A program made the position numbers and the translations under genes. From the NCBI GenBank assembly GCA_017883965.1, contig JAFNKG010000013.1, forward strand, positions 1-48,019: a DNA stretch of 48,019 nucleotides, given 5' to 3'. Below the pieces are notes generated by a model. That model made no database searches and was not told the DNA's origin. It worked only from the letters and a program-made list of their open reading frames with translations. Shown here piece after piece: positions 29,196 through 47,044 of the stretch. This stretch comes from Candidatus Methanophagales archaeon. GTDB taxonomy: Archaea > Halobacteriota > Syntropharchaeia > Alkanophagales > Methanospirareceae. Position 1 is the first letter of the stretch. Each line of letters starts with the position of its first letter.

Positions 29196-32100
29196 ATGAA
29201 AATAGGCGTTTATGTGTGTCATTGTGGAACGAACATAGCAGCAACGGTGGATGTGAAGGAGATAACGGAGTTTGCGGAGAATCTACCCAATGTCTCTATT
29301 GCACGCGATTACGTTTATATGTGCTCAGACCCGGGTCAGGAGCTGATAAAGAAGGATATTCAGGATGCGAATCTTGACAGGGTGGTCATTGCTTCTTGCT
29401 CACCGAGAATGCACGAAGTTACTTTCCGGAGGGCATGCGAGGAAGCGGGATTGAATGCGTATTGCATGGAGATGGCAAACATAAGGGAGCAGTGCAGTTG
29501 GGTTCATTCTGATAAAGGAAAGGCGACAGAGAAAGCAAAGGAGCTGGTGGCGAGTGCAGTTGCAAAAGCATCGTTATTACAGCCTTTGGAACCGATGTGC
29601 GTGGGAGTAACACCTTCTGCATTGGTAATAGGCGGGGGTATAGCGGGGATACAAAGTGCATTAGATATTGCAGATGCAGGTTTTCAGGTGTATCTGGTAG
29701 AAAGGGAGCCATCCGTAGGTGGGCACATGGCACAGCTTGATAAGACCTTTCCAACTCTGGATTGTTCTGCTTGCGTGCTCACACCGAAGATGGTGAATGT
29801 AGCTCGCCATAAGAACATCGAGCTGATTACTTATGCGGAGGTGGAGAGTGTAGAAGGCTATGTGGGTAATTTCAGGGTGAGGGTAAAGAAGAAGCCTCGT
29901 TACGTGGAGGAGGATAAATGCACGGGCTGCGGAGAATGTGCAAATGTATGCCCGGTTAAAGATATCGTTCCTAATGATTTCGATTTGGGGTTATCAAAAA
30001 GAGGAGCGGTATACATTCCATTTCCTCAAGCTATTCCTCTGGTGTACACAATTGATAAAATAGAGGGGACACCACCATGTAGATTGGGATGTCCAGCAAA
30101 TGTGAATGTGCAGGGTTATGTTGCTTTAATCGCTCAGGGTAGATACAAAGAAGCACTTGATTTGATACGTGAAGAAAATCCTTTAGCCGCTCTTTGTGGA
30201 CATGTATGCCCGCATCCGTGTGAGGCAGAATGCAATCGAGGAGAATTTAACGAACCGATTGCAATAGCGGCGTTGAAACGATTTGTGGCAGACCACAACC
30301 ACATTGACATTGAAGTTGATTATGAGGATGCGGATGAGAATGGAACTGGAGAAGAGAATAAGGAGAAAGAGGAGGAAAGGGAGGAGAAGATTGCGATTAT
30401 TGGCTCAGGTCCGGCAGGTCTAACTGCAGCTTATTATCTTGCGAAGAGCGGGTATTCGGTGACAATTTTTGAAAAATTGCCAGTTCCAGGAGGAATGCTC
30501 GCTGCCGGAATACCAGAGTACAGGTTACCAAGGGATGTTTTGAAAAAGGAGATAGACTACATCAAGCGAGGAGGGGACAGCAGTGGGAAAATAGGAATAG
30601 AAACAGGCATGGAGATAGACAAAGAAGGTTTTGAAAAACTTAGAAAAGAATACAATGCTATATTCGTTTCCGTAGGTGCGGATAAGAGCAGAGAGTTCGG
30701 TATTGAGGGTGAGAAGCAGGAGGGTGTAGTTCATGGTGTTGATTTCCTTCGTGAACTGAATCTTGGTAATGAAGTGGAAATAGGTAAGAAAGTGGCAGTA
30801 ATAGGCGGTGGAAACGTAGCGATAGATGCTGCGAGATGTGCATTGCGGTTGGGTTCTGACGTGACCATTGTGTATAGAAGGTCGAGAGAGGAGATGCCGG
30901 CAAGGGACGAGGAGATAACCGATGCAGAGGAGGAAGGCGTGAAAATTGCTTATTTAGCGAATCCGACTAAAATCATTGGTGATGAGGCTGATAAAGTGCG
31001 AGGTATGGAATGTATAAGGATGGAATTAGGAGAACCGGATGAATCCGGGAGACGGAGACCCATACCTGTTGAAGGCACAGAATTTGTAATGGATGCGGAT
31101 ACGGTAATACTGGCAATAGGTCAGCAATCGGAGCTTGGATTCCTCGAAGGAAGCGGTATAGAGACCGATGCCAAAAGGAAACTGATTAAAGTAGATGAAA
31201 ATGGGAGAACAAATGTAGAAGGGGTATTTGCAAGTGGTGATGCCGTAACAGGACCTGCAACGGTGATAGATGCGATTGCGGGAGGGAAGAGAGCGGCAGA
31301 GGCAATTGATGGATATCTGCGGGGAGAGTCATTGCCAGAGTCCGTGGAAGAAGAAAAGGAGAAGATAGGAATAGAGGAGATAAAAGCACGGCTACAGGAG
31401 TTAGAGGAGAAGAAAAGGAAGAGTATGCCAGAACTCCCGATTGAAGGGAGAAGGCACAGTTTTGAAGAGGTTGAACTTGGATTTACGGAGGAAATGGCAG
31501 TAGAAGAGGCGAAGAGATGTTTGAGGTGCGGAATTTGTGCAGATTGCAGGCTTTGTGAGAAGGTATGCGAGGCAGATGCGATAAATCATGATATGAAAGA
31601 GGAAGTGGTCGAATTAGAAGCAGGGGCGATAATAGCAGCAACGGGTTATGATTTATTTGACGCTTCTTTAGAGCCGAATTATGGATATGAGTATGACGAG
31701 GTAATAACTGGCTTGGAGTTTGAGAGGCTTTGTAACGCTTCGGGTCCGACAGAGGGGAGGATAGAACTAAATGGTAAGGAGCCGAAAGAGGTGGTTTTCA
31801 TAAGCTGCGTAGGGTCGAGGGAGAAAGAGGTAGAGGGGGGAAAAGGAAATGAATACTGCTCTCGTGTATGCTGCATGTATGTTGCGAAACAGGCGCATTT
31901 GGCGAAAGAACGTATACCGGATGCAAATGTAACCGTGTTCTATACGGATGTGAGAGCGTTTGGTAAAGGATTTGAGGAATTCTGCTGGCGAGTGAAAGAG
32001 GAGGGGGTTAATTACATAAGAAGGGAGTTAGCAGATACGATAAAAGTGGAGAAGGATGAGAATGGAAAGTTGAGCGTGAAAACGACAAGTAACGGGCATT

Positions 32101-32675
32101 CAATGGAAAAGGAGGCAGACCTTGTAGTGCTCGCAACCGGCATTGTTCCACGGAAGGACGTTCTCGAGTTTGCAAAAAAGCTGAAGATAACGCAAAGTGG
32201 TGATAGATTCTTCCTTGAGGCACATCCAAAACTTCGACCGATGGATACGCTTACCGAAGGTATTTTTATCGCTGGCTGTTGCCAATCGCCAAAGGATATT
32301 CCTGATAGTGTTGCACAGGCATCGGCAGTGGCATCGCGGGTCTGCAGTATCTTATCCAGGGATTATATAGCGGTGGAGCCGATAATAGCGGAAGTAAACG
32401 AAGCGGTTTGCATCGGCTGTGGTTCTTGCGAGGAAATTTGTCCCTTCGGTGCGATAGAGTTAAAAGAAGAGGAGAGACAGTTTGAGGAAATCATGTTACG
32501 AACGAGGAAATCGCATGTGAACCCGGCGCTTTGCAAAGGTTGTGGCGCTTGCATTCCCGAATGTCCCGTCGGTGCGATGAGACAAAAGCACTTCACATCT
32601 GCACAGATAGAGGCGATGTTGAGGGGAGTTGGTGTAGTGGAGTATGGAGAGAAATCGTCAACATTTAATATTTAG
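29196..32675 (+). CDS. hdrA: HdrA with an inserted GltD-like NAD(P)H oxidoreductase module
   Basis: An 1159-residue fusion. Residues 1-290 match HdrA copy 1: IGVYVCHCG, FAD motif VIGGGIAGIQSALDIA (about 145), and Fe-S motif CTGCGECANVCPV (about 241). At about 290 the second inserted-cluster region is interrupted by a whole GltD-type module: N-terminal Fe-S helix domain CRLGCPANVNVQGYVALIAQG and CGHVCPHPCEAECNRG, FAD Rossmann IIGSGPAGLTAAYYLAKSGY (about 400), and NAD(P)H Rossmann VIGGGNVAIDAARCALRLG (about 534). HdrA resumes near 775 with CLRCGICADCRLCEKVCEADA and runs to a two-cluster C-terminal ferredoxin (about 1071 and 1113). One protein could thus join NAD(P)H to Hdr electron flow; the direction is unknown. 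Confidence 0.9.
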   Translation: MKIGVYVCHCGTNIAATVDVKEITEFAENLPNVSIARDYVYMCSDPGQELIKKDIQDANLDRVVIASCSPRMHEVTFRRACEEAGLNAYCMEMANIREQCSWVHSDKGKATEKAKELVASAVAKASLLQPLEPMCVGVTPSALVIGGGIAGIQSALDIADAGFQVYLVEREPSVGGHMAQLDKTFPTLDCSACVLTPKMVNVARHKNIELITYAEVESVEGYVGNFRVRVKKKPRYVEEDKCTGCGECANVCPVKDIVPNDFDLGLSKRGAVYIPFPQAIPLVYTIDKIEGTPPCRLGCPANVNVQGYVALIAQGRYKEALDLIREENPLAALCGHVCPHPCEAECNRGEFNEPIAIAALKRFVADHNHIDIEVDYEDADENGTGEENKEKEEEREEKIAIIGSGPAGLTAAYYLAKSGYSVTIFEKLPVPGGMLAAGIPEYRLPRDVLKKEIDYIKRGGDSSGKIGIETGMEIDKEGFEKLRKEYNAIFVSVGADKSREFGIEGEKQEGVVHGVDFLRELNLGNEVEIGKKVAVIGGGNVAIDAARCALRLGSDVTIVYRRSREEMPARDEEITDAEEEGVKIAYLANPTKIIGDEADKVRGMECIRMELGEPDESGRRRPIPVEGTEFVMDADTVILAIGQQSELGFLEGSGIETDAKRKLIKVDENGRTNVEGVFASGDAVTGPATVIDAIAGGKRAAEAIDGYLRGESLPESVEEEKEKIGIEEIKARLQELEEKKRKSMPELPIEGRRHSFEEVELGFTEEMAVEEAKRCLRCGICADCRLCEKVCEADAINHDMKEEVVELEAGAIIAATGYDLFDASLEPNYGYEYDEVITGLEFERLCNASGPTEGRIELNGKEPKEVVFISCVGSREKEVEGGKGNEYCSRVCCMYVAKQAHLAKERIPDANVTVFYTDVRAFGKGFEEFCWRVKEEGVNYIRRELADTIKVEKDENGKLSVKTTSNGHSMEKEADLVVLATGIVPRKDVLEFAKKLKITQSGDRFFLEAHPKLRPMDTLTEGIFIAGCCQSPKDIPDSVAQASAVASRVCSILSRDYIAVEPIIAEVNEAVCIGCGSCEEICPFGAIELKEEERQFEEIMLRTRKSHVNPALCKGCGACIPECPVGAMRQKHFTSAQIEAMLRGVGVVEYGEKSSTFNI

Positions 32676-32683
32676 ACACAGAT

Positions 32684-32771
32684 TTGCGGAATGAAAAGGT
32701 CTTACGCAAATAACGTTATGCAGCAAGCAGTGGGGTTTTGGAAGATTAATGGTAAATATGTATTCTTTAAA
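32684..32771. repeat. 88-bp direct repeat, copy A
   Basis: Begins TTGCGGAATGAAAAGGTCTT and contains the palindrome ATAACGTTAT; the second copy at 33814-33901 differs at a handful of positions. An ATG at 32691 opens a 43-codon frame (to 32822) beginning MKRSYANNVMQQAVGFWK. In the second copy the frame stays open for 35 codons. Whether these are peptides or chance is unclear. The flanking sequence to 32880 holds nothing else I can name. Confidence 0.6.
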
Positions 32772-32887
32772 AATTACACCACTATTGCCAAATATTTTTC
32801 AAATATTTGTAAAAAATTTTGAATTAATAATAATCTTTAAATTATGATCATGTCAAAACATATATAGATAATTACAGTATGATGAAT

Positions 32888-32924
32888 CGTTCAAAATTGA
32901 ACGGATCCGAAAGTTTTTTTTAGC
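32888..32924 (+). promoter_or_regulatory. Hairpin and T-run upstream of MPSGK copy 1
   Basis: CGTTCAA-AA-TTGAACG (32888-32903), a 7-bp stem, is followed 11-18 nt later by a run of eight to nine T. Next come a strong AAAGGAGGTGAG ribosome site and ATG 32945. A TATA-like CATATATAGATAA lies near 32868. The arrangement could be a terminator of an upstream transcript or an attenuator/operator of the small gene. Confidence 0.35.
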
Positions 32925-32944
32925 AAAAGGAGGTGAGAATAAAA

Positions 32945-32977
32945 ATGGAAGAAGAAAAAAAACGTGGGCATGGCTAA
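32945..32977 (+). other. Leader ORF of MPSGK copy 1 (10 codons)
   Basis: ATG 32945, behind the strong GGAGG site, encodes MEEEKKRGHG and stops with TAA at 32975-32977, overlapping the main start as TAATG. Reading the eight-A run with a -1 slip (A AAA AAA followed by C) would instead continue as MEEEKKTWAWLMPSGK, as in copy 3, where the frames are fused. Translational coupling or slippage are both possible. Confidence 0.45.
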
Positions 32978-33201
32978 TGCCGAGCGGGAAAATATATAAG
33001 ATAGTGACAAAACCAGAGGACGGAACGATAAAAGTCTACAATCCAGATGGAAAGTTGGTGAGGAGTGAAGAGAAAATAACTGAAGAGGAGGTAAGCCTCA
33101 TTGAGAAAAACTTTCTCGAAACCGTAGCGGCAATGGTAGGAGCGAAGGAAAAGGAAGAAGAAACTGAAGATAATCTTGAGACTGCGATGTATATACGATA
33201 A
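32977..33201 (+). CDS. MPSGK-family small protein, copy 1
   Basis: A 74-residue protein of a family I do not recognise, with three copies in the window. The N-terminal half is beta-like (PSGKIYKIVTKPEDGTIKVY, NPDGKLVRSEE); the C-terminal half is a charged helix (EEEVSLIEKNFLETVAAMVGAKEKEEE). It has no signal peptide, membrane helix or Cys motif. The K-I-Y-K...I-K-V-Y-N-P-D-G-K pattern suggests a small beta hairpin with a dimerising helix. It is followed by the long inverted-repeat element also found after copy 2. Confidence 0.6.
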   Translation: MPSGKIYKIVTKPEDGTIKVYNPDGKLVRSEEKITEEEVSLIEKNFLETVAAMVGAKEKEEETEDNLETAMYIR

Positions 33202-33240
33202 GATAAGAAGTAACTGCTCAATCTTCGGTTGCCTTATAGA

Positions 33241-33328
33241 TTCCAAATGGGTGCATTACGCGTTTCTTACGGGGTTGCCTTACCCACACTTAGGCATGTT
33301 TCCCTCCACAGTAATGCACCCTTTGGAA
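33241..33328. repeat. Long-stem inverted-repeat element, copy 1
   Basis: TTCCAAATGGGTGCATTAC (33241-33259) pairs with GTAATGCACCCTTTGGAA (33311-33328): 18 bp with one bulged T. The ~50-nt loop contains GTTGCCTTACCCACA. The second copy (43016-43107) preserves the stem through G:U-compatible changes. It may be a structured RNA in the 3' region of the small gene or a MITE-like DNA element. From 33366 on the sequence no longer matches copy 2. Confidence 0.6.
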
Positions 33329-33421
33329 TTTTTCGATACAGAATTTTTGAGGAGCTGATTATTGTAAAGGGGACATGTATTAAGAGTTTGTGGTTTAAAT
33401 TCTAAACACTAAATTCGAGAT

Positions 33422-33490
33422 CTAAATTAGGACAATACCTAATATTTCTATCTTATAACCCTGCATGTTTCCAGTTGTCGTTACTATCAT
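33422..33490 (-). pseudogene. UPF0145 (YbjQ) gene remnant
   Basis: On the minus strand GGAGGTGATAAA precedes ATG 33490, and the frame reads MIVTTTGNMQGYKIEILGIV before stopping at 33422. This matches the N-terminus of UPF0145/YbjQ proteins (MIITTT..VEG..I.EYLGIV), which normally run about 105 residues. Only the first ~20 codons remain, so the gene was cut, probably at the junction with the duplicated block ending near 33360. Confidence 0.55.
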
Positions 33491-33528
33491 TTTATCACCT
33501 CCAATTTCTTTCTTTTCGTTTAATCGAT

Positions 33529-33765
33529 TTACCAAACACTACGCATATAATTGAATTCAAATTCATCCACCTTTTCAGACGGCAATCCAAGGTTAATAAA
33601 CATATCCTTGAAAACACCTCTATATTCCTCTTCTGGGATTTCCTCTCTCACGTCAAGTTTAATCTGAAGATTTACGCCTCCCAGCCTGTCAATTTTAATC
33701 GTATATTCATGCCCTTTATCTCGATGAATTATTCTTACATTTTGGACAATGTAAGGTATGAGGTA
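33529..33765 (-). pseudogene. 5'-truncated gene remnant
   Basis: A minus-strand frame ending TAA at 33529 reads as real protein: RIIHRDKGHEYTIKIDRLGG, then LDVREEIPEEEYRGVFKDMF and GLPSEKVDEFEFNYMRSVW. No ATG or TTG lies in frame upstream before the stop beside the 88-bp repeat, so the 5' end seems lost. It was apparently in an operon with the UPF0145 remnant 38 nt downstream. The family is unknown. Confidence 0.45.
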
Positions 33766-33813
33766 TAGGAGAAAGTTAGTTGAATACGTGGAAGTGGAAA
33801 GCGAGGGTAAATG

Positions 33814-33901
33814 TTGCGGAATGAAAAGGTCTTACGCAAATAACGTTATGCAGCAAGCAGCGGGGTTTTGGAAGACTAATGATAAAAGTGTATTCTATAA
33901 A
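33814..33901. repeat. 88-bp direct repeat, copy B
   Basis: Second copy of the element at 32684-32771, same orientation, 1130 bp away. It abuts the truncated gene remnant on its left, consistent with recombination between copies or an insertion having removed the gene's 5' end. Downstream to 33998 a minus-strand 22-codon frame (33930-33998) is present but unassignable. Confidence 0.6.
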
Positions 33902-33975
33902 GATTCAACTCTCTCTGGAGTCCCTTGAACTACTCTGCATCACCTCTGGTGTCAAGTTTATCAACACCAATTACC

Positions 33976-34161
33976 CTATTTTTTTCTACTCCTGCCATGT
34001 TCCTTTAATTTAAGGGGGTTACTTAAAAAACTTCCATAATTATAAAATTTTTTATCAATTATTTGTAATTTTTGTTGAATATAATTGAAAAAAATAGCCA
34101 GATTACTCATGTGACACAAGAGCACGTGAACTTCCTCTATTAAGCTACCTTCGATTTTCAT
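33976..34161 (-). pseudogene. Decayed ArsR-type regulator
   Basis: The first 20 residues, MKIEGSLIEEVHVLLCHMSN, align with the start of the intact ArsR-type regulator at 45346 (MKNEYSLVKEVHMLLHPMRY). After that the frame loses the winged-helix pattern and becomes low-complexity (KLQIIDKKFYNYGSFLSN). A good TATA-type promoter still sits upstream. I read this as a truncated paralogue; a short functional peptide is less likely. Confidence 0.45.
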
Positions 34162-34185
34162 GCTAAATTTCGGTAGCTGAAAACC

Positions 34186-34198
34186 AGTATATAAATTT
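34186..34198 (-). promoter_or_regulatory. TATA box before the ArsR remnant
   Basis: On the minus strand AAAAATTTATATACT lies about 25-37 nt before ATG 34161, the normal archaeal distance. The same AT-rich block precedes the divergent sensor kinase gene, whose GGAGG site and ATG 34271 follow. Confidence 0.4.
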
Positions 34199-34270
34199 TT
34201 CGCTTTTTTATTTTTTAAAAAGATAATGTTATATCACTTATACGACATAAAAAAGTTTGGAGGATATGAT

Positions 34271-35686
34271 ATGAAGAAAAAGAGATTGGAAGAAGGGGAA
34301 TTGCATAAAATAGCCGTTCTTGGATCCTTGCTTTTTATCTGTCTGCTGGCAACTTATTATTCTCATTTTATTTTAAAAATCGAAATTATCTTTACGCATC
34401 TCTTCTATGTGCCGATAATCCTTGCGGGTTTGTGGTGGTCACGCAAGGGCATAATGGTTGCGGTATTCCTTGCTCTGCTGCTGTTAGTTTCACATGCTCT
34501 AAGCCCGCTTGGGACCTTCACATGGACTGATGTAGCGCGAGCTTCCATGTTTATGGTAGTCGGGACGGTGGTTGCCCTCCTGAATGAAAAGAGGCACATA
34601 CTGGAGGATAAACTGCGGGCATACAGCAAGACCCTGGAGCAGAAGGTGGGGGAGCGCACGAAGGAACTCAGAGAATCCGAGGAGAGATACAAGGGCATAT
34701 TTGAAACGGTCCCTGCATCAATAATCTTGAGCGATATGCATGGTCAAATAGTCGATATTAATCCGTATCCTATAACTCTCATCGCTAAGGGTAAGACCCC
34801 CAGAGAAGACTTCATTGGGAAAAATATTGTAACAAACCCAACTATTGTGAATGCCGGTCTTTCGGAGACCTATAAAAGAGTGCTTGAAGGAGAACCTTTT
34901 GATCAAAAGGACATGTATTTTCCCATCCTACCGACGGGAACAGATGGCTATTTCAATGTGAAGGGAGTGCCCCTTTTAAAAAACGGTGAGGTGATTGGTG
35001 CCATCATAATGCATGAAGACATCACCGAGCGCAAGCGGATGGATGAGCAAATCAAAGCTTCGCTAAAAGAGAAAGAAGAGCTTCTGAAGGAAATTCACCA
35101 CCGTGTGAAAAACAATCTCCAGATCATTTCCAGCCTGCTTGATTTGAGCAGCATGCGAAGCAGTAATGCGGCTGTTGATTTATTTACCGACGCCCGTGCC
35201 AAAATCCACACGATGGCTCTTATTCATTCACAACTCTACCGAAGCGACCGATTTGATCAAATAGACATGGAGAACCATATCCGTGAACTGACCGACTTCC
35301 TGTCGCAGATCTATGCATCGAGATTGATTACCCCCGTTATTGAAAGCTCCAGCGTTTACCTTTCTATAACCCAAGCTATCCCCTGCGCCCTTGTCTTGAA
35401 CGAACTGATTTCCAATGCCTACAAACATGCCTTCAGGGAGGGGCAAAAAGGGACAGTTAAAATTTCCATGCAGAGGTCAGCAGAGGACACGATTTTTATG
35501 AGAGTCAAAGATGACGGTATCGGTATCCCGGAAGAAGTTGACATTTATAAAACTGAGAGCCTGGGTCTAAAGTTGGTCAGAAATTTGGTTCAGAAACAAC
35601 TGAAGGGGGAAATAGAAGTTAAAAGGGATAATGGTACAGAATTTATAATAGAATTTAAACATATTCGTGAAACATGCCTGAAATAA
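34271..35686 (+). CDS. Membrane sensor histidine kinase (PAS, HisKA_2)
   Basis: A 471-residue sensor kinase. Residues about 10-110 form a multi-helix membrane domain (VLGSLLFICLLATYYSHFIL, THLFYVPIILAGLWWSRKGI, VAVFLALLLLVSHAL) shared with two other sensors in the window. A short coiled coil leads to a PAS domain (ERYKGIFETVPASIILSDMHG) and a HisKA_2 dimerisation domain with LLKEIHHRVKNNLQIISSLLDL, the His being the likely phospho-acceptor. The HATPase follows with LNELISNAYKHAF and VKDDGIGIPEE. ATG 34271 has GGAGG 7 nt upstream; the earlier ATG 34226 lacks one. It overlaps the receiver gene by 13 bp, so the two are a likely cognate pair. Confidence 0.88.
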   Translation: MKKKRLEEGELHKIAVLGSLLFICLLATYYSHFILKIEIIFTHLFYVPIILAGLWWSRKGIMVAVFLALLLLVSHALSPLGTFTWTDVARASMFMVVGTVVALLNEKRHILEDKLRAYSKTLEQKVGERTKELRESEERYKGIFETVPASIILSDMHGQIVDINPYPITLIAKGKTPREDFIGKNIVTNPTIVNAGLSETYKRVLEGEPFDQKDMYFPILPTGTDGYFNVKGVPLLKNGEVIGAIIMHEDITERKRMDEQIKASLKEKEELLKEIHHRVKNNLQIISSLLDLSSMRSSNAAVDLFTDARAKIHTMALIHSQLYRSDRFDQIDMENHIRELTDFLSQIYASRLITPVIESSSVYLSITQAIPCALVLNELISNAYKHAFREGQKGTVKISMQRSAEDTIFMRVKDDGIGIPEEVDIYKTESLGLKLVRNLVQKQLKGEIEVKRDNGTEFIIEFKHIRETCLK

Positions 35687-36546
35687 TGGTGGTAGACGAT
35701 GAGGTCGTCATAACTACGCAATTGGAGGAACTTCTGACTTCCATGGGATACGAGGTCGTAGGGACGCCTTCTTCAGGGGAAGAAGCGGTAGAGATGGCAA
35801 GACGCCTCAGACCCGATTTAATCCTGATGGATATTGTTATGCCGGGGAAGTTGGACGGTATTGATGCCGCCAAAACAATTAAAGCAGAACTGGATATTCC
35901 GACTATATTTCTGACCGGTTATGCCGACGATAAATTTGTAAGAAGGGCGAAAAATGTAGAGCCCTTTGGATATATCGTCAAGCCCTTTCAAGACGCTGAA
36001 CTGCGAGCCACGATAGAAATTGCTCTTTATAAAAAAGAACTGGAGAGGAAGTTACAGGCATCAGAAGAACAGTTCAAAGCCATCGTTGAGAACTCTGTTG
36101 ATGAAATCATGATGATTGACAAAGACGGCAGGTATTTAGTGATTAATACCTGCGCTGCGTCAACTGCTGGCTTAAAACCCGAGGATATGGTTAATAAGAC
36201 ACTCTGGGAGCTGTTTCCAAAAGAACAGGCGGATAATCTTTTTGAACCGTGTAAACAGGTGTTCGCCTCAAAAAAGGCAACTTCGCGAATAATTCATCAT
36301 AGAAGTGTTTTAGGTAGAGGATTTAAATGGGTTCACAGTATTATTGCACCAGTGCTTAGTGAAAATAAGGATGTTGAGGCAGTTGTAATTATCTCCAGAG
36401 ACATTACCAGGCAGAAAGAAATGGAGCTGAAATTAAAGGAGACTGCTTCCCAGCTTACAAGCATTATGGATTCTGCAACTGAGTATATACTTGCTGCATA
36501 CGCGCTCAATAAAAAGTTGATTTCCGAGAGGCATTTTGAGGAATAA
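35674..36546 (+). CDS. Receiver-PAS response protein, C-terminally truncated
   Basis: 290 residues. The receiver domain has the acidic pocket VVDDE (D8, D9), phospho-acceptor D53 in LILMDIVMPGKLDG, and the later Thr/Lys in FLTGYADD and YIVKPF. After a coiled coil comes a PAS domain (EEQFKAIVENSVDEIMMIDKDG to IISRDITRQKEME). A second PAS seems to begin (LTSIMDSATEYILAAYALNKKLIS) but stops after a few residues, so an output kinase or further PAS has probably been lost. It has no DNA-binding domain and is translationally linked to the preceding kinase. Confidence 0.82.
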   Translation: MPEIMVVDDEVVITTQLEELLTSMGYEVVGTPSSGEEAVEMARRLRPDLILMDIVMPGKLDGIDAAKTIKAELDIPTIFLTGYADDKFVRRAKNVEPFGYIVKPFQDAELRATIEIALYKKELERKLQASEEQFKAIVENSVDEIMMIDKDGRYLVINTCAASTAGLKPEDMVNKTLWELFPKEQADNLFEPCKQVFASKKATSRIIHHRSVLGRGFKWVHSIIAPVLSENKDVEAVVIISRDITRQKEMELKLKETASQLTSIMDSATEYILAAYALNKKLISERHFEE

Positions 36547-36628
36547 GACGAGCACAGTTGTTTAGTTAACTACAAGATTACACAGATTTTCACGAGAGGA
36601 CAATTGAAGATGCAAGATGCAAGTCAAA

Positions 36629-36677
36629 CCTGTATCCTGTATCCGGCATCCTGTATCCTGTATCCTGTATCCGGCAT
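36629..36677. repeat. Heptanucleotide tandem repeat (7 units)
   Basis: Seven 7-bp units in a row: CCTGTAT twice, CCGGCAT, CCTGTAT three times, CCGGCAT. It lies between the truncated receiver gene and the 3' end of the recombinase gene, in a gap (36547-36708) with no gene. The two unit types are interspersed, which suggests expansion of a composite unit by slippage. Confidence 0.8.
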
Positions 36678-36708
36678 CATATTCTTGTGTTAAGCGAAAC
36701 GAAGAACC

Positions 36709-38364
36709 TTAGAATTTTTCACCACATTTCGGGCAGTATTTCCAATCGTGGGATAGTGTTTCTCCGCAGTTATCGCAGGTTGTAAATCCTGCTCTCTTTC
36801 CGCATTTGGGACATATTTCCCAGTTCTTCTCCAGTTCCATTCCGCAGTTTGTGCATTTGTAAACTAGGTACTTATTTAGTCCCCCTTCTTCCAGTAACGG
36901 CATCAGCCAATTTTCACATCTCCTGTTGATTTCTTCTCTAATATGTTCTCTGAGGCTTTTTAGCAACTTTGAATCCTTTATGATATCACCCTCGTTGCTA
37001 AGATTATGCAATTCTATGAAGCTATTAAGTAAAGAATTAGCTCGGATGTCGAATATCTCTGCAATTTCTTTGAGCATTTCCACTTTCGGAACAGCAGGTC
37101 CTAATCTATCTTCGATTTTTTCACGCATCTTTTGCTCCTTCTCTTCCAATACCTGCGTCATCTGCCTTTCATATCTCGTGTCAATTTCTTCTCTAATATA
37201 ATCTCTGAAGTCTTTTAGCAACTTTTGGTCCTTTTCGATGTCACTCTCATTGCTAAGATTACGTAATTCCATGAATCTATCCATTAAATAATCAAATCTA
37301 ATCTCGAATGTCTCCGCAATTTCTTTGAGCATTTCCACTTTCGAGCACGCTGAGCCATCTTCAATTTTTACACTCATCTCACTTATGCTCAAGAATGGTT
37401 CTACTTTCCTGTATTCCTCTTTCAGTTCCTCATCAGATGGTCCATAGTATGCTCCTTCAAATTTCAGCCTATGCCCTATTATGTACTCAACAAGGTCCGG
37501 AGGGACTCCAGAATTCCGGCAGATAGTAGAAAAGCTTTTTCGCAAGGCATGTGCTCCGGCAATATTTATGGTGCTCCTTTTCAGCTCTTCCACATCAACT
37601 ACGCCAGCTCTTCTTGCTAAGTCCCTAAATACAATCCCTAATCCTATATTAGTCAATCTTTCGCACTTTCTCTTATCATAAACCCTTTCGCTGATAAATA
37701 GTGGAGAATCAAGCTTTAGCATTTCTGCGGGAATATATCGCGTCCCCATTTCTCTATCGTGAAGGTATAACTTCAGAGCTTCAATCGCATCATGCCCTAT
37801 ACAGGTCTTGTAATCAATCCCCTCCTTTTGACGAACAACCTGGATCACCAAAGGCTCTTCTCCTTTCTTTAAACCTTCTTTCACATCTCCATAATCGAGA
37901 CTTAGTAATGTCGAGGTATCAAACCCACCCTGGAACATCATCAGTACGATCGCTCTGTCTCTCAAATTCTTACAGCAATTGACCATCTTTTTTACGTCTT
38001 CAGCCCTGAGTACTCGCCTTATGTTTTCCTTTTTTACTCTTGATGCAGGAAGCCTGAGTGGTCCTAAAGGGAAGCCATTGTCTCGGTAGAATGCCCTAAC
38101 CGCCGTGATACAAACGTGAGCAGTGCCTACGGATAATTTCTTCTCCTTTTTCAGCCAATCATAGAACTTTCTCACTTCTATATCAACTCTTTCTCGTTCC
38201 CTTGGGGATTTCTTCACGTTTTCCTCTATCTCATCTATCAATTCCTTTGGTTGTAAGTTTCTGAATTCGCAATACTTTTTCAATCCTGAGATGTAATTCC
38301 GCCTTGTGTTTTCACTCTTTCCTGCCAAAGGCGCCATTGCTTCTTCTGTTTCTACCATCTTCAT
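36709..38364 (-). CDS. Tyrosine recombinase with duplicated helical module and zinc ribbons
   Basis: A 551-residue integrase-like protein. Residues about 15-105 are a SAM-like core-binding domain (NTRRNYISGLKKYCEFRN). The catalytic domain has GAHALRKSFSTICRNSG (HxLR), VEYIIGHR, and tyrosines in FEGAYYGPSDEELKEEYRKV. At the usual Arg I site the sequence is GGFDTSTLLSLDYGDV, with Asp where Arg is expected. Then come two tandem ~65-residue copies of a module starting KVEMLKEIAE, and two C-terminal zinc ribbons (YKCTNCGMELEKNWEICPKC, TTCDNCGETLSHDWKYCPKC). It may be an accessory or inactive recombinase, or belong to an archaeal subgroup with altered active site. Confidence 0.82.
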   Translation of the reverse strand: MKMVETEEAMAPLAGKSENTRRNYISGLKKYCEFRNLQPKELIDEIEENVKKSPRERERVDIEVRKFYDWLKKEKKLSVGTAHVCITAVRAFYRDNGFPLGPLRLPASRVKKENIRRVLRAEDVKKMVNCCKNLRDRAIVLMMFQGGFDTSTLLSLDYGDVKEGLKKGEEPLVIQVVRQKEGIDYKTCIGHDAIEALKLYLHDREMGTRYIPAEMLKLDSPLFISERVYDKRKCERLTNIGLGIVFRDLARRAGVVDVEELKRSTINIAGAHALRKSFSTICRNSGVPPDLVEYIIGHRLKFEGAYYGPSDEELKEEYRKVEPFLSISEMSVKIEDGSACSKVEMLKEIAETFEIRFDYLMDRFMELRNLSNESDIEKDQKLLKDFRDYIREEIDTRYERQMTQVLEEKEQKMREKIEDRLGPAVPKVEMLKEIAEIFDIRANSLLNSFIELHNLSNEGDIIKDSKLLKSLREHIREEINRRCENWLMPLLEEGGLNKYLVYKCTNCGMELEKNWEICPKCGKRAGFTTCDNCGETLSHDWKYCPKCGEKF

Positions 38365-38388
38365 TTATTTATAAAGGGTTTCTCATAT

Positions 38389-38408
38389 GCTTAAATATAT
38401 CCTATATA
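38389..38408 (+). promoter_or_regulatory. BRE/TATA promoter of the chemoreceptor gene
   Basis: GCTTAAATATATCC matches the promoter pattern seen at 3111 and 8531. It implies a ~95-nt leader before the ATG at 38520, ending in AAAGGAGGTGA. On the other strand the same AT block could serve the recombinase gene 30 nt away. Confidence 0.45.
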
Positions 38409-38519
38409 GACAATACTCCAGAGAGAGTTAGTGCAAGGAATAAACAACACACTCGATGCCCTGTCTTTGAACGGTCTGCCGTAAGGTATGAAAACAAAAA
38501 GGAGGTGAATGGGAAAAAA

Positions 38520-40082
38520 ATGAAACTGGGAAACATGAAAGTTGGACCGAAACTGTTTCTGGGCTTTGGCCTCGTGCTGGTATTGACGGCAGCGCTGGGA
38601 ATAGTTGCAATTACGCAAATAGGCGTCATGCAAGAGGAAAATGAAGTGACAGAAAGAGCGGCAGAGATGAAAGTGCAAATGAAAACGGTCAGGCAACAGG
38701 AAAAGAACTTTATAATGAGAGAGGACCAGGAGAGCATTGACAATAACAAAGATGCCGTAGCGAAAATAAAGAGCCTGGTAGCCGAGCTTGAAGCAATGGA
38801 GGAGGAAACCGGGGAAGGCAGAGCGGCAATAGATGAAGTCAAAAGAACAATTCCGACGTATGAGAGTGCCTTTGCTCAGCTTATAGCAATTACAAAAAGC
38901 AGAAACGAGGATCTGGCGGCTTGCGAAGAGCATGCGCGCGAGATAGAGAGTGAGATAAAAGCCAGTTCAGCCCACCATGAGGAGCAGGACGACATGATGC
39001 TCGAGCTGCTAGCTATCAGGCGAGCGGAAAAGAACTACGTACTGCGTGAGGACGAGAAATACATTACACAGGTAGCTGAGCTCCTGAACTCCTTGAAGGC
39101 AGAAGCCGATGCAGCGGCGATTACGGGAGCTGAAAAGAGTGCAATCAAAGGCGCGGCAGATGAGTATCATGAGCATTTCTCTATATACGTAAGCACGTTG
39201 GCTGAGTCTAATGCGCTCCAGGCTACGGATGGTCCATTGGTGCAGTCAGGGCGTGCGATAGACGCAGCGGCAACCACACTACTTGAGCATGCACATGAAG
39301 GAGCAGAAGAGGCAGCCTCAACAGCCACTATGCTAGTAATATCATTTATCGTCGCAGCGATCGCAGTCGGCGTAGGAATCGCACTTGTCGTTACCAAATC
39401 AATCACCGGACCAGTTGGTGAAGTGGTAAAGGTCGTGAAGGATTTTGCGGCTGGTAAACTCGCCACCAGAGCGAAAGCAAAAGCGTCAGGCGAGCTCCTG
39501 GAAATGACTAACACCTTGAATCAGTTCGGAGAGGAGTTGCAGGAGATTATCAAAGACATCGGTAAAGTAACAGGGGACATGGCAGGAGGGAACTTGAGCA
39601 CAGAGTTCGCCGCCGAGACACCCGGGGAATTCAATGCGATAAAGGACAACCTCAACAAGGCTATCGAGAGTTTATTGGGTATTATAAAAGAGATCGCTAA
39701 AATAACAGGGGACATGGCATCAGGGAACCTAGGCACAGAGTTCGTCGCCGAGACACCCGGAGAATTCAATGTGATACGGGAGAACCTCGACAAGGCTAAT
39801 GATAGTTTATCGGATTTGATCGCAGAGCTGCGAGGCGCAGTGGAGAACGTTGCAGCGATAGGCAAAGAATCTTCTTCTTCCGTCCAGCGGGTGAATTCAG
39901 GTATGCAGCAGATATCTTCAGCATCGCAGCAAATATCAAAGGGTGCGCAGGAAACTTCGAGCACCGTTAACGAATCGGCAAAGGAGGTTAAGGATACGAA
40001 CGCGGTATTACAGCAGGTGCAGTCACATGCAGAGGAATCAAATAAGTTCGCGCGGAGAGTGCGGACAGTGCAAAAGAGATGA
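38520..40082 (+). CDS. Methyl-accepting chemotaxis protein, N-terminal part (frameshifted)
   Basis: 520 residues up to a premature stop. TM1 is [20 protein letters not shown]. The outer domain has two related helical halves ([16 protein letters not shown] and [16 protein letters not shown]), the pattern of a four-helix HBM-type sensor. TM2 is [25 protein letters not shown]-like repeats follow, with [20 protein letters not shown] and [20 protein letters not shown] as tandem copies, then the first signalling helix. At 40050-40054 GCGCG carries an apparent extra CG; the frame then reads RRVRTVQKR and stops. Start ATG 38520, with GGAGG upstream; longer frames overlap the recombinase gene. Confidence 0.8.
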
Positions 40083-40519
40083 ATGAAATGGCTAAGAAAT
40101 CAGCAGAAGGGATGAAGGAAATACAGGATGCTATCAGTGACACCGTAGCCATAATAAAAAACCTGGGCGGTTCGTTAGAGGAAGTAGGAAAGACTACCGA
40201 TGTGATAGAGGGCATCGCAGAGCAAACGAATCTGTTAGCTTTGAATGCTGCAATAGAAGCTGCACGTGCCGGAGAACACGGGCGGGGCTTTGCTGTCGTT
40301 GCCGAAGAAGTTAGAAAACTGGCAGAGAACTCAAAGAAGATTGCAAGTTCAGCAGAAGAGAGTGCATCGTCATCAAAACAAAGCTCTGCAGCCGTAGAAC
40401 AGCAAACGGCATCCGTGGAACAGCTCAGCGCTGGTATCCAGAAACTTGCGGAAATCTCTGAGCAAGCAGCAGAGATGATTGCCAAATTTAAATTGAAGGT
40501 GGGCGAAGCCAAGAAATAA
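40079..40519 (+). CDS. Methyl-accepting chemotaxis protein, C-terminal part
   Basis: 146 residues that continue the chemoreceptor in another frame. Reading back past the ATG, this frame gives [12 protein letters not shown], joining smoothly to HAEESNKFA of the upstream part. It contains the whole CheA/CheW-binding hairpin tip ([36 protein letters not shown]) and the return helix ending [12 protein letters not shown]. Alone it lacks a sensor and membrane anchor. A sequencing error, true mutation, or recoding are the options. No cheA or cheW is in the window. Confidence 0.8.
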
Positions 40520-40532
40520 AAAGGAAGAAAAA

Positions 40533-41288
40533 ATGGATGAAAAGGATAGAACAGAAGGGAATGGAATGGTAAAGAAAATAGATGAAGGAGAAAGGCAAGT
40601 GTTTTGGGATTCAGAACTCGAGCTAAACGCTTTTCAGAGGGACGCACTCCGCGAGCTTGGCAGCATCGCCTCGTGTCATGCAGTAACGTCTCTGGCAGAG
40701 ATAACGGGATTGACAATAAATATTAAAGTGCCAACTGTGGAAGTCGTGTCGATAGAGAATACGGAAAAACTGATAGAAGCAGAGAAAATAGTTGCAGGAA
40801 ATTTCGTTCAGCTTGACGGTGGATTTTCCGGCTACTTACAGGTTCTGTTTCCAGAGAGAAGCGCTTTCCGTCTTGTTGACATTCTCATGGGCAGGATGCC
40901 CGGTGAGACGAAAAACATAGAAACAGAAATGGAGGAATCGGCGTTAATGGAAACAGGTAACATATTAGCTTCTTCGTTCTGCAGTGCCATTGCGGACTTT
41001 CTCCAGTTTCCTCTGATGCCTTCTCCACCATCTTTTGCTTTTGATATGATGGGTGCAATGGTGGAAAGCGCAATAATAGCAATGGTACAAGCACAAGAAA
41101 CTGAGCACTTCATCCTGTTCAAGTGCAATTTTCAGGAAGAAGCGAATGCAATCTACGGCTATATCTTGCTGTTTCCACTCCAGGACAGTCTAAAAGACAT
41201 ACTATCTTCGCTTGAGGCAGTAGCGGTGAAAGAAAAGGTTATGGAGTCAGAAAAGAAGATAAGGGGGAAAGAAAATGAGTGTGCCTAG
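40533..41288 (+). CDS. CheC-family phosphatase-like protein
   Basis: A 251-residue protein with the CheC/CheX/FliY fold, which dephosphorylates CheY-P or binds CheD in chemotaxis. CheC active sites follow [D/S]xxxExxN. The second site is intact in SALMETGNILASSFCSAIADFL with a Pro at the right distance. The first reads DALRELGSIASCHAVTSLAE, with Ser in place of Asn, and is probably inactive. It sits 13 nt after the chemoreceptor fragment, and its last 14 bp overlap the next sensor gene, so the three are one unit. Confidence 0.75.
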   Translation: MDEKDRTEGNGMVKKIDEGERQVFWDSELELNAFQRDALRELGSIASCHAVTSLAEITGLTINIKVPTVEVVSIENTEKLIEAEKIVAGNFVQLDGGFSGYLQVLFPERSAFRLVDILMGRMPGETKNIETEMEESALMETGNILASSFCSAIADFLQFPLMPSPPSFAFDMMGAMVESAIIAMVQAQETEHFILFKCNFQEEANAIYGYILLFPLQDSLKDILSSLEAVAVKEKVMESEKKIRGKENECA

Positions 41289-42681
41289 CAAAATTCATAC
41301 TATCCCGTTGGTGAGCTCTACTCGACGAATAAAATTTGAAGGACGAGAAGAAAAATACAAAGTTACGGTAATGGCTATTATTTTAGCTGGCGCTTGCCTT
41401 CTTACGTATTATTTTCATGTGATACTTGGAACTGGCACTGTTTTTACCCACCTCTTTTATATTCCAATTATTTTAGCATCTTTTTGGTGGGGAAAAAAGG
41501 GTTTAGTTGTGGCTATATTTTTAGCGCTATTCCTGATTTATAGCCACATTTACCTTAGATTGGGTGTAGAAACTGCCAATGATTATTTTCGAGCTATAGC
41601 CTTTATAGCTGTTGGCTTTGTAGTTGCTACGTTAAGTGAGCGGATTGAGAAGGCGAAGGCAATCAAACTTGCCTACGCAGAACTCGATCAGATATTCAAC
41701 ACCGTAGCTAACGGGCTGCGTCTGATTGATAAAGACTTCAACGTGCTTCGAGTTAACGAGACATTTTTGACTCTATCAGGCATAAGCAGAGATGAAGCGA
41801 TGAGCAAAAAGTGCCATGAGGTATTTCACAGCTACCTGTGTTATACTCCCGGTTGTCCGCTGACTCAGATTCTCGGTGGTGAGGGTGGTGAGGAGCGTGT
41901 TGAATGTGAAGTAGAAAAAGAACGCAACGACGGCACTCGAGTCCCAGGCATTTTGACAGCAAATCCCTTTCGGGAACCTGATGGCAAACTGATTGGCATT
42001 GTTGAAGATTTTATGGACATTTCCGAACTCAAACATGCGGAGCAGTCGCTGCGGAAAGCACATGACGAACTGGAACTTCGAGTAAAGGAACGTACCGCCG
42101 AACTGGAGGAAGCAAACGAACTGCTGAAGCGAGAAATCCGCAAGCGTAAAGAAGCAGTAAAAAGAGTAAAAAACCTTGAACTACCTGCGTTGCATAGATT
42201 ATTCAAGCCGGGTAAATGCTATTTGATTATTGAGGAAAAACCAGACACGAGTCTCAAATTGTTCAAAAAACTGCTTGAATACGAGTTTAAAGGGCTGCTC
42301 ATAACAAGGATTCATCCTTCGCACGTTCGCGAGGAATACAATATGAAGGATGTACCGATAATCTGGCTAACACATGCCAAGGGAGAAAACCATGTTGTTC
42401 CGACAAACATAGCACAGTTGAACATAGCAGTAAAAGATTTTGCGGAAAATGGCGTTGAGGGCGTAATCATGCTGGAAGGTTTAGAATATCTCATTGACCA
42501 GAACGGATTTGAGTTTGTTCTTCGTTTCGTCGAATCGCAGACAGACATTCTCTCGACAAGCGAGTGTCGTTTGATAATGCCATTCGATGCGCTGGCAGTG
42601 AATGAAGTGGAATTGCATCGGTTGGAGCGGGGAGTAAATGTGATGAATGCTAAAGAGGTGGAAGTGCTTGTTCTGGATTAA
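41275..42681 (+). CDS. Membrane sensor with PAS and DUF835 output domain
   Basis: A 468-residue protein. The membrane domain (about residues 25-125: GACLLTYYFHVILGTGTVFTHLF, IILASFWWGKKGLVVAIFLALFL) matches that of the other two sensors. Next is a PAS domain (LDQIFNTVANGLRLIDKDFN) with a Cys/His cluster, KKCHEVFHSYLCYTPGCPL, then a coiled coil. The last 160 residues are DUF835: GKCYLIIEEKPDTSLKLFKKLL, DVPIIWLTHAKGE, VIMLEGLEYLIDQNGFEFVLRFVE. There is no kinase domain. DUF835 is an archaeal signalling domain of unknown activity. The PAS-coding DNA is nearly identical to that of the kinase at 43136. Confidence 0.85.
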   Translation: MSVPSKIHTIPLVSSTRRIKFEGREEKYKVTVMAIILAGACLLTYYFHVILGTGTVFTHLFYIPIILASFWWGKKGLVVAIFLALFLIYSHIYLRLGVETANDYFRAIAFIAVGFVVATLSERIEKAKAIKLAYAELDQIFNTVANGLRLIDKDFNVLRVNETFLTLSGISRDEAMSKKCHEVFHSYLCYTPGCPLTQILGGEGGEERVECEVEKERNDGTRVPGILTANPFREPDGKLIGIVEDFMDISELKHAEQSLRKAHDELELRVKERTAELEEANELLKREIRKRKEAVKRVKNLELPALHRLFKPGKCYLIIEEKPDTSLKLFKKLLEYEFKGLLITRIHPSHVREEYNMKDVPIIWLTHAKGENHVVPTNIAQLNIAVKDFAENGVEGVIMLEGLEYLIDQNGFEFVLRFVESQTDILSTSECRLIMPFDALAVNEVELHRLERGVNVMNAKEVEVLVLD

Positions 42682-42717
42682 TTCGTTTAATTCTCGAACA
42701 TGCGGAATGAGGTAAAA

Positions 42718-42750
42718 ATGGAAGAAGAAAAAGAAAAAATTTGGGCCTAG
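42718..42750 (+). other. Leader ORF of MPSGK copy 2 ending in TAG
   Basis: ATG 42718 encodes MEEEKEKIWA and stops at TAG 42748-42750; one codon later, in the same frame, is the main ATG 42754. In copy 3 the corresponding codons are TGG CTA, so a TGG-to-TAG change splits what is otherwise one frame. Readthrough would give one fused protein. Confidence 0.45.
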
Positions 42751-42753
42751 CGA

Positions 42754-42984
42754 ATGCCGAGCGGGAAAATATATAAGGTAGTGACAAAACCAGAGGAGGG
42801 AACGATAAAAGTCTACAATCCAGATGGAAAGTTGGTGAGCAAAGATGAAAAACTGAGCAAAGAGGCAGTGAGTCTCATTGAGAAAATCTTTCTCGAAAAC
42901 GTGGCAGCAATGGTAGGAGCGATGGAAAAGGAAAAAGGAAATGGAACTGAAGAAAATCTTGAGACTGCGATGTATATACGATAA
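42754..42984 (+). CDS. MPSGK-family small protein, copy 2
   Basis: 76 residues, highly similar to copies 1 and 3: PSGKIYKVVTKPEEGTIKVY, PDGKLVSKDEKLSKEAVSLIEKIF, then a Lys/Glu/Gly-rich tail ending TAMYIR. It lies 72 nt after the DUF835 sensor gene and about 150 nt before a sensor kinase gene, with the long-stem element in between. The leader ORF just upstream carries the only obvious spacing for initiation (GCGGAATGAGGTAAAAATG). Confidence 0.6.
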   Translation: MPSGKIYKVVTKPEEGTIKVYNPDGKLVSKDEKLSKEAVSLIEKIFLENVAAMVGAMEKEKGNGTEENLETAMYIR

Positions 42985-43015
42985 GAAGTAACTGCTCAAT
43001 CTTCGGTTGCCTTAT

Positions 43016-43107
43016 AAATTCCAAATGGGTGCGTTACGCGTTTCTTAGAAGTTGCCTTACCCACAGGCTCCATGTTTGCCTCCTCAGTAATGCACCCTTT
43101 GGAATTT
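43016..43107. repeat. Long-stem inverted-repeat element, copy 2
   Basis: AAATTCCAAATGGGTGCGTTAC (written in two parts: 43016-43027, 43028-43037) pairs with 43087-43107, which ends ACCCTTTGGAATTT: about 21 bp with one bulged T and one G:U-type position. The loop shares CGCGTTTCTTA and GTTGCCTTACCCACA with copy 1. It lies between the small gene and the kinase start at 43136, so as RNA it would be in the kinase 5' leader. Confidence 0.6.
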
Positions 43108-43135
43108 TTCGAGAGAGAATTTTTGAGGAGCTGTG

Positions 43136-44587
43136 ATGGGAATAAAAATTGAAGGACGAGAGGAAAAATACAAAATTATTGTAATGGCTACCCTTTTAGC
43201 TGATGCTTGCCTTCTCACGTATTATTTTCATGCGCTACGTGGAATCGGCACAGTTTTTACCCACTTCTTTTATATTCCAATTATTTTAGCATCGCTGTGG
43301 TGGAAAAGAAAAGGTTTAGTTGTGGCTATATTTTTAGCGGTATTCCTGATTTGCAGCCACATTTTCCTTAGATTGGGTGTAGAGGCTACCAATGATTGTC
43401 TTCGAGCTATTGCCTTTATAGGTATTGGCTTTACAGTTGCTACGTTAAGTGAGCGGATTGAGAAAGCGAAGGCAATCAAACTTGCCTACGCAGAACTCGA
43501 TCAGATATTCAACACCGTAGCTAACGGGCTGCGTCTGATTGATAAAGACTTCAACGTGCTTCGAGTTAACGAGACATTTTCGACTCTATCAGGCATAAGC
43601 AGATATGAAGCGATGAGCAAAAAGTGCCATGAGGTATTTCACAGCCACCTGTGTCATACTCCCGGTTGTCCGCTGACTCTGATTCTCGGTGGTGAGGAGC
43701 GCGTTGAATGTGAAGTAGAAAAAGAACGTAACGACGGCACCAGAATCCCTGGCTTTTTGACGGTAACTCCCTTTTGGGGACATGATGACAGACTTATTGG
43801 CATTGTTGAAGATTTTATGGACATTACCGAACGCAAGCGTGCGGAGAAGGAACGTGAGCACCTTATAAAAGAGCTTGAAGATAAGAACGCCGATATGGAG
43901 AGGTTCACTTACACGGTCTCTCACGACTTAAGGTCGCCACTTTTTACCATTCAGGGTTTTGCTAATGTGCTACGAGAGGATTTGAAACGGAATGAGAGAG
44001 AAAAAGTGGAAGACAATTTGAAGTTCATAGAAAACGCCGCTACAAAGATGGACCACCTTTTGAGTGCGACACTGGAACTCTCCCGCATCGGTCGTGTGGC
44101 TAATCCGTCAGAAGATGTGCCTTTTGGAGAAATTATTCAAGAGGCACGGGAGCAAACGGCAGAACAAATAAAATCGAGCGGGGTTGAACTATCAGTGGCT
44201 GAGGACTTCCCTGCTGTTTACGTGGACCGCATGAGGCTGGTCGAGGTGCTGGTGAACCTGATTGCGAACAGCATAAATTACATGGGTGAGCAATCACATC
44301 CAAAAATAGACATTGATTATCGTGTAGATGGCGAAGAAACAGTGTTTTTTCTGAAGGATAATGGTATAGGAATAGACAAGAGCCAGCACGAGAAGGTGTT
44401 CGAACTGTTTTACAAAGTGGATAAAAGTAGCAAGGGAACAGGTGCAGGTCTCGCCATCGTGAAACGAATAATCGAGGTGCATGGAGGTCGTATGTGGATA
44501 GAATCAGAGAAGGGTAAAGGGTGCACGGTTTGTTTTACCATACCCAAAATTGGAAAAAAGAGGGATAAAACATGGCAGAATATTTAA
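43136..44587 (+). CDS. Membrane sensor histidine kinase (PAS, HisKA)
   Basis: A 483-residue kinase. The membrane domain (VMATLLADACLLTYYFHALRG, THFFYIPIILASLWWKRKGLVVAIFLAVFLICSHI) and the PAS with KKCHEVFHSHLCHTPGCPL are close copies of the DUF835 sensor. The HisKA domain has FTYTVSHDLRSPLFTIQGFANVL with the phospho-accepting His. The HATPase shows NLIANSINYM (N box), LKDNGIGIDKSQH (G1) and GTGAGLAIVKRIIEVHGGRMWIES (G2). GAGGAG precedes ATG 43136. It overlaps the receiver gene by 16 bp, implying a cognate pair. Confidence 0.9.
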   Translation: MGIKIEGREEKYKIIVMATLLADACLLTYYFHALRGIGTVFTHFFYIPIILASLWWKRKGLVVAIFLAVFLICSHIFLRLGVEATNDCLRAIAFIGIGFTVATLSERIEKAKAIKLAYAELDQIFNTVANGLRLIDKDFNVLRVNETFSTLSGISRYEAMSKKCHEVFHSHLCHTPGCPLTLILGGEERVECEVEKERNDGTRIPGFLTVTPFWGHDDRLIGIVEDFMDITERKRAEKEREHLIKELEDKNADMERFTYTVSHDLRSPLFTIQGFANVLREDLKRNEREKVEDNLKFIENAATKMDHLLSATLELSRIGRVANPSEDVPFGEIIQEAREQTAEQIKSSGVELSVAEDFPAVYVDRMRLVEVLVNLIANSINYMGEQSHPKIDIDYRVDGEETVFFLKDNGIGIDKSQHEKVFELFYKVDKSSKGTGAGLAIVKRIIEVHGGRMWIESEKGKGCTVCFTIPKIGKKRDKTWQNI

Positions 44588-45003
44588 ATTCTGTGCGGAT
44601 ACGGGTTTTGCATGTGGATGACGAACCAGCGCATTTGGAGCTAACGAAATTATTCTTGAAAAGGGAAGCAAAAGACGATTTTGAAATCTCCAGTCTGCTT
44701 TCCGCAGAAGAGGCGTTGGCTAAACTTGAAAGGGACCCTTTTGATGTTATTATTGCAGATTATGATATGCCGGTAATGGATGGAATAGAATTGTTGGAAG
44801 AAGTGAGGAGAACGGTAGGTGATATACCCTTCATTCTTTTCAGCGGGATGGCGGAACCAGAAACTGTCGATGAAGCTTTGGAAAAGGGTGCAGACAGATA
44901 CATTACGAAGAGCGGCGATCTCGCCACTCAGTGCAATGAATTGGCACATGCTATCCGAGAGTTAGTGAAGGAGGGAGATGAGAAGGAGGTGGCAATAGTT
45001 TAA
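44572..45003 (+). CDS. Stand-alone receiver-domain response regulator
   Basis: A 143-residue CheY-like receiver. Acidic pocket HVDDE (D16, D17), phospho-acceptor D63 in VIIADYDMPVMDG, then FILFSGM and YITKSGD with the conserved Ser and Lys. There is no output domain, so it probably acts by protein contact or a phosphorelay. The start overlaps the kinase stop region by 16 bp. It is probably the target of the kinase, and could also be a substrate of the nearby CheC-like protein. Confidence 0.9.
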   Translation: MAEYLNSVRIRVLHVDDEPAHLELTKLFLKREAKDDFEISSLLSAEEALAKLERDPFDVIIADYDMPVMDGIELLEEVRRTVGDIPFILFSGMAEPETVDEALEKGADRYITKSGDLATQCNELAHAIRELVKEGDEKEVAIV

Positions 45004-45023
45004 AATGCGGAATGCTGTAAAAA

Positions 45024-45335: not shown

Positions 45336-45345
45336 ACCAGCATCC

Positions 45346-46994: not shown

Positions 46995-47044
46995 TATAAG
47001 AATCCTACTGACAGAATAGAATTTCTTCTTTAATTCAAAAAGAC

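Follow-up and report, generated by a model that had tools for sequence, protein, structure and literature searches.

The arginine of box I, Arg I, counts among the residues that define tyrosine recombinases, and a protein without it is readily taken to have lost its function. The stretch of DNA considered here (the window, 48,019 nucleotides, contig C29 of a 2.48-Mb ANME-1 genome) carries on its minus strand an intact ORF of 551 amino acids (36709..38364, stop codon included) whose product resembles such a recombinase and has an aspartate in the Arg I column. Is this protein broken, has it been turned to another purpose, or does it perform the usual reaction with a rearranged active site? A sequence-only reading had offered a regulator or a recombinase with shifted chemistry, and shifted chemistry is the better of these two options, as both the arginine and the acid look relocated and not lost. 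The gene appears to be functional and not broken, an unusual representative of an enzyme kind already known, and we hold it fairly probable, from the residue patterns described below, that it encodes an arginine-relocated, competent, chromosomally resident tyrosine recombinase.

The identity of the protein was recognized correctly from the letters alone. Starting with ATG, the ORF encodes an N-terminal core-binding (SAM-like) domain (residues 12-95, 38080..38331, minus strand, as are all features of the protein given below; Pfam PF13495 Phage_int_SAM_4, 1.6e-6) followed by a catalytic domain (residues 118-299 by Pfam and on to about Y306, 37468..38013; PF00589 Phage_integrase, 3.1e-11, 43.8 bits for a cut-off of 27.1). 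No arm-binding model appears among the best 25 of its 30 Pfam matches. The signature residues K, HxxR, H/W and Y of the superfamily all align: Lys180, the catalytic lysine of the hairpin (37825..37827), His272 and Arg II within H272-A-L-R275 (37540..37551), His298 of the GHR motif G297-H298-R299 (37471..37473) and Tyr306, the predicted nucleophile (37447..37449), which is 100% conserved in the Arg-I-less and canonical groups alike. The HxLR, GHR and Tyr motifs had accordingly been reported as kept. In box I, GGFDTSTLLSLDYGDV (GGFDTSTL), the alignment places Asp149 (37918..37920) where the canonical arginine is expected, and Thr152 (37909..37911) in the column of the catalytic glutamate or aspartate.

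Beyond Tyr306 and before the zinc ribbons sit two helical modules, predicted as helices by AF2 with modest confidence, whose DNA copies (37142..37343 for the first, 36887..37088 for the second) share 79% identity across 202 nt in a DNA self-comparison. The tandem duplication perceived earlier is therefore real, with 43 of 80 residues identical at an offset of 85, although the period is 85 residues instead of the 65 first given. The paralogue P0002 and the homologue in genome G001, which belongs to the same genus, have a single module, so the second module of the window protein looks, on sequence, like a local duplication. The protein ends in the two zinc ribbons already suspected, matched by Pfam as a double zinc ribbon (DZR, 4.3e-9; residues 504-548, 36721..36855). 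Compared with its two closest homologues, the gene has a dN/dS of 0.25-0.27; it is under purifying selection and the protein is constrained, which shows that the ORF is not a chance one.

The survey of archaeal relatives suggested by the sequence-only reading reveals that the absence of Arg I extends to a whole clade, which spans ANME-1, Archaeoglobales- and Methanosarcina-type genomes as well as methanogen viruses. Of the phylum's 392 genomes, a search with a family profile detected members in 81 at 1e-12, the weaker matches including canonical enzymes. Family matches were aligned with a PF00589 sample from 60 genomes, identical proteins being merged first; the canonical sample was of our own choosing (30 loci and 40 further regions drawn from the PF00589 matches, a subset of them all). 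Of the resulting 141 distinct recombinases, 78 have Arg in the Arg I column, 25 Gly, 13 Ser, 12 Asp and 6 Ala, and the seven with a gap there were left out of the counts. Six added phage proteins bring the totals to 61 without Arg I and 79 with it, the latter including a canonical match from an Acinetobacter phage (GLRLAEL). The column reads G, S, A or D in all 61 clade proteins, complete virus integrases among them, which rules out chance or misalignment at box I; the clade-wide absence likewise rules out a loss limited to the window gene. In a tree of 76 representatives inferred with columns 149 and 178 excluded, a single branch separates all 34 Arg-I-less proteins from the other 42 (SH-aLRT 90). 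Moreover, 49 of the 53 complete clade members read R-K-H-R-H-Y at positions 178/180/272/275/298/306. The window protein belongs to the clade as we define it, by G, S, A or D in the box I arginine column together with an arginine two residues before the hairpin lysine (K-2). This box I-altered archaeal clade is ordinary in kind and unusual in detail; we found no description of it in the open-licence literature, including passages of PMC8371274, which is weak evidence of absence.

What, then, could fill the place of Arg I? The candidate is Arg178 (37831..37833). All 58 clade members that have the hairpin lysine carry an arginine at K-2, compared with 10 of 72 Arg-I-bearing relatives, proteins lacking that lysine (3 of 61 in the clade, 7 of 79 canonical) being excluded from this count; among representatives at 60% identity the figures are 33/33 versus 3/43. 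A Fisher p-value computed from such counts should not be taken as a true probability, because the clade amounts to a single event. Counted by alignment column, R178 is present in 31/31 clade representatives versus 1/42 canonical ones, the sharpest contrast of any charged residue in the catalytic domain. The structure prediction that had been called for agrees as far as position is concerned. The AF2 model has a mean pLDDT of 79.8, with values above 90 in most of the catalytic blocks, and its best structural matches are XerA, the integron integrase IntI4 and Cre. In it, strand beta2 covers residues 172-178 in a block of pLDDT 97 and ends with R178, close to K180 in the following turn. Side chains two positions apart in a strand (i and i+2) lie on one side of it, so that of R178 should point where the catalytic lysine does, and hence presumably toward the phosphate.

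From these patterns, R178 very probably takes over the function of Arg I. Nevertheless, the association of the K-2 arginine with the loss of Arg I amounts to one change on the tree, and R178 could therefore owe its fixation to common descent and not to any replacement of Arg I; some canonical enzymes, the ten counted above, carry both arginines. It is also conceivable, though quite improbable, that a different conserved arginine occupies the pocket, R204 of the YLxxR helix or R135 of the RD[KR]A motif being the likeliest. R204 does occur in 97% of clade representatives versus 30% of canonical ones, but it is found in enzymes that have Arg I as well, no more than 22 of 32 representatives retain R135, and the contrast is sharpest at R178.

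A second arginine location has a precedent. In IntCTnDOT integrases the catalytic arginine is found in one of two places, and the downstream arginine of IntDOT, whose box I arginine is absent, was shown biochemically to substitute for it (section 11 of PMC8138268); the archaeal clade shares the missing box I arginine, with R178 as the candidate replacement. The IntCTnDOT subgroup differs in belonging to Bacteroidetes elements, in having an arm-binding domain and in its weak conservation of Arg I, which is present in NBU1, whereas no member of the archaeal clade seen here has it. The IntDOT residues concerned are, as we take it, S259, R285 and K287, in which case R285 and K287 would define the same K-2 place. 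The sequence-only reading had stated that a model showing a conserved arginine elsewhere, typical of an active subgroup, would count against it; by sequence such an arginine appears to exist, given that R178 is fixed in the clade, that integrases of excising viruses fall within it and that IntDOT offers a parallel.

The aspartate itself may find its explanation in a second residue. The catalytic septet includes an acid three residues past Arg I, E176 in Cre (Table 3 of PMC10516654). Clade proteins with Asp149 have Thr at position 152 in 12 of 12 cases, while those without Asp149 have E or D there in 43 of 44, the sole exception (L022) carrying Ala and Gln. This pairing suggests that D149, one helical turn away, plausibly stands in for the acid lost at 152; if it does, the aspartate is a second relocation and not a chemical opposite of Arg I. 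We thus propose a catalytic septet that would be complete, with two residues moved. The role of Arg I would be carried by R178 on beta2, two residues before Lys180, with both side chains on a common face close to the scissile phosphate. In the subclade to which the window protein belongs, the acid would have shifted backward by a helical turn to the position that Arg I vacated, leaving Thr in its own. Together with K180, H272, R275, H298 and Y306, these residues could support DNA cleavage and rejoining through the usual 3'-phosphotyrosine route. Here, in an ANME-1 genome, the putative enzyme is a chromosomal resident in which the recombinase is joined to helical modules and a double zinc ribbon, and its gene lies head-to-head with a chemoreceptor gene; the window copy, if active, would act on a nearby chromosomal site.

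Known relatives offer several points of comparison. The five distinct methanogen-virus integrases that we found all lack Arg I (Gly in psiM100 and psiM2, Ala in MSTV1, Ser in vir080 and vir075) and all have an arginine at K-2. Like the window protein, they keep K, H, Arg II and Tyr and extend in a C-terminal tail past the catalytic domain; unlike it, they are virus-borne, retain E or D at 152 without the D149/T152 swap, and show no zinc ribbons. Three of the five, those of MSTV1, vir080 and vir075, have K, R and R, respectively, in the H298 column, and in the MSTV1 integrase the Arg I column is directly followed by two arginines (CARRET). The excised form of MSTV1 was detected by PCR, and excision at its att sites was ascribed by the authors to the virus integrase (PMC12134362); the annotation of the MSTV1 record contains one recombinase. 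In psiM100, the annotated attL and attR cores are identical to each other over 17 bp (at 1514 and 30295), and the stretch that they bound has a single annotated integrase. Virus integrases of the Arg-I-less clade, in MSTV1 and psiM100, thus excise or integrate. XerA (Pyrococcus 4a8e, Thermoplasma 5hxy) has the same fold and domain order as the window protein, and 4a8e is the best structural match (Z 21.0 over 261 residues, rmsd 8.8), but XerA has Arg I and a glycine at K-2, and the window protein scores 81.9 bits with the XerA model NF040815 of NCBIfam, below the equivalog cut-off of 220.

The window copy lies in no recognizable mobile element, and neither an att site nor an inverted repeat nor an excised form of it came to light. 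There is no tRNA gene in the window and one among the 25 loci scanned around relatives (L073), and Rfam gave no match in 30000-48019. Searches for viral homologues of the window-type subfamily returned none in viral contigs and none in phages at 1e-5; a mobile-element context for the window copy was consequently dropped. Viral contigs likewise yielded no homologue of the paralogue P0005 or of a Methanosarcina-type member, and plasmids no match to the latter, while the psiM100 integrase matched 32 plasmid records, weakly, bacterial where listed. Four paralogues occur in the same genome. P0002, on contig C75, is 85% identical over query residues 3-358, has one short module and also reads D in the Arg I column; P0003 (contig C10) is 45% identical and reads G, the shorter P0004 (C38) reads A, and P0005 (C63), which by ORF reading lies among phage-like genes, reads S. 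Another Arg-I-less integrase, at L011:3840-5009, which has Ser in the Arg I column, YLRD instead of HxLR and GW instead of GH, is located near portal- and capsid-like genes.

The recombinase gene shares an upstream region of 155 bp (38365..38519) with a divergent methyl-accepting chemotaxis protein gene on the plus strand (38520..40519; Pfam HAMP and MCPsignal). The same divergent layout recurs on contig C75 and on contig C3 of G001, and the sequence before the chemoreceptor start is conserved among the three pairs. The chemoreceptor gene of the window is split into two ORFs by a frameshift near 40080, reflecting either an assembly error or real decay, and lacks the PAS domains of its counterpart on C75.

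This arrangement lends itself to another reading, according to which the protein is now a DNA-binding regulator that keeps the fold and, bound to the 155 bp between the two divergent genes, controls its own expression and that of the chemoreceptor without cutting, its zinc ribbons and helical modules serving protein contacts. Its head-to-head pairing with the chemoreceptor gene, stable in two places of the window genome and in G001, fits such a role, as do the lack of a mobile-element context and the head-to-head pairing of a sister subfamily with a second, truncated mcrA. Furthermore, repressors of this fold exist: MrpR/YopR and SroF of SPbeta-like phages appear among the structural matches (Z 12-13), and MrpR has lost Arg I. 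The resemblance ends at the active site, however. MrpR has N254 and V291 in the His places and V257/R258 in that of Arg II, and keeps 3 of 7 catalytic residues (Table 3 of PMC10516654), most having been lost in repressors of this type, while the window protein retains His, Arg and His there, with five residues in place and two candidate replacements. So strict a retention of Y306 and R275 would not be expected of a pure regulator, and we regard this role as possible but doubtful. That the gene is instead what is left of an integrated element and is decaying into a pseudogene seems highly improbable. The frameshifted chemoreceptor gene and a related fragment on contig C15 of G024, which lacks its first part, could be taken to point that way, but the ORF is uninterrupted, its dN/dS is that of a constrained gene and the catalytic residues outside box I are all kept. 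The G024 fragment (L118:764-1240), which is of the window type and misses the N-terminal half, still adjoins a chemoreceptor gene. The reading of an arginine-relocated recombinase remains the one that we favour.

A further suggestion of the sequence-only reading, that the recombinase was responsible for the duplication of nearby cassettes, found no support. Two adjacent PAS proteins at 41275-44587 have N-terminal DNA that is 87% identical and different ends, DUF835 in one and a histidine kinase in the other, and their tandem PAS cassettes (41327-41626 and 43140-43439) are 87% identical; the pair represents a duplicated cassette whose output domains have been exchanged. A repeat of roughly 430 bp is present in three copies in the window (32940-33357, 42700-43140 and 45005-45329). 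Its copies flank the duplicated cassettes, and it recurs between signalling genes, in the window as well as on contigs C75, C59, C65 and C106. As candidate sites of the recombinase these repeats were dropped because they hold a small ORF of about 75 residues and because, on C59, the repeat ORF lies beside a chemoreceptor where the family search found no family recombinase. Ordinary homologous recombination would suffice to account for the duplication.

The sister subfamily, to which P0003 belongs, has a different partner. In ten ANME-1 genomes its gene lies head-to-head, at about 40 bp, with a second mcrA that misses its first 94-95 codons. The truncated mcrA loci are L009:1-1133 and L114:2-1375 in the window genome (G000), and L013, L014, L015, L018, L019, L048, L253, L257 and L262; a TATA-like CCTTTTTATAYAGGC stands at the recombinase/mcrA junction in most copies seen. 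In all seven comparable genomes (G000, G001, G013, G015, G023, G032 and G137; the comparison for G033 gave no alignment), the truncated mcrA has its closest match in the intact copy from the same genome, with 93-99% nucleotide identity versus 74-94% to others, the margin in G000 being narrow (94.05% to its own versus 93.64% to that of G001). This closeness suggests gene conversion, and an old insertion at mcrA followed by such conversion may account for the locus. The sister recombinases at L009:1134-2447 and L015:393-1709, from genera g1 and g4, have a dS of 0.20 while the adjoining truncated mcrA are only about 80% identical, a hint that the recombinase may have passed from one lineage to another. 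After the former comes a gene (L009:2467-3402) with a MarR-like N-terminus, by reading, and DUF2124, and a window protein at 21373-21903 resembles that N-terminus alone. It is tempting to imagine that ANME-1 domesticated arginine-relocated integrases with zinc ribbons, each set head-to-head with a key gene, a chemoreceptor gene in the window and the truncated mcrA in the sister subfamily, that it still switches or reshuffles by site-specific DNA changes. We think this unlikely; were it true, such exchange would have left its trace in the near-identity of truncated and intact mcrA.

Annotation rules that rely on box I will label enzymes of this kind as dead. A whole archaeal clade without Arg I, including the integrases of excising viruses, with one fixed candidate replacement and a linked acid swap, constitutes a clean natural test of how far an active site can be moved, and suggests that the second arginine location of IntDOT is no oddity of Bacteroidetes. 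Finally, the resident zinc-ribbon members of ANME-1 pose a separate question, which concerns regulation in methane-oxidising archaea.
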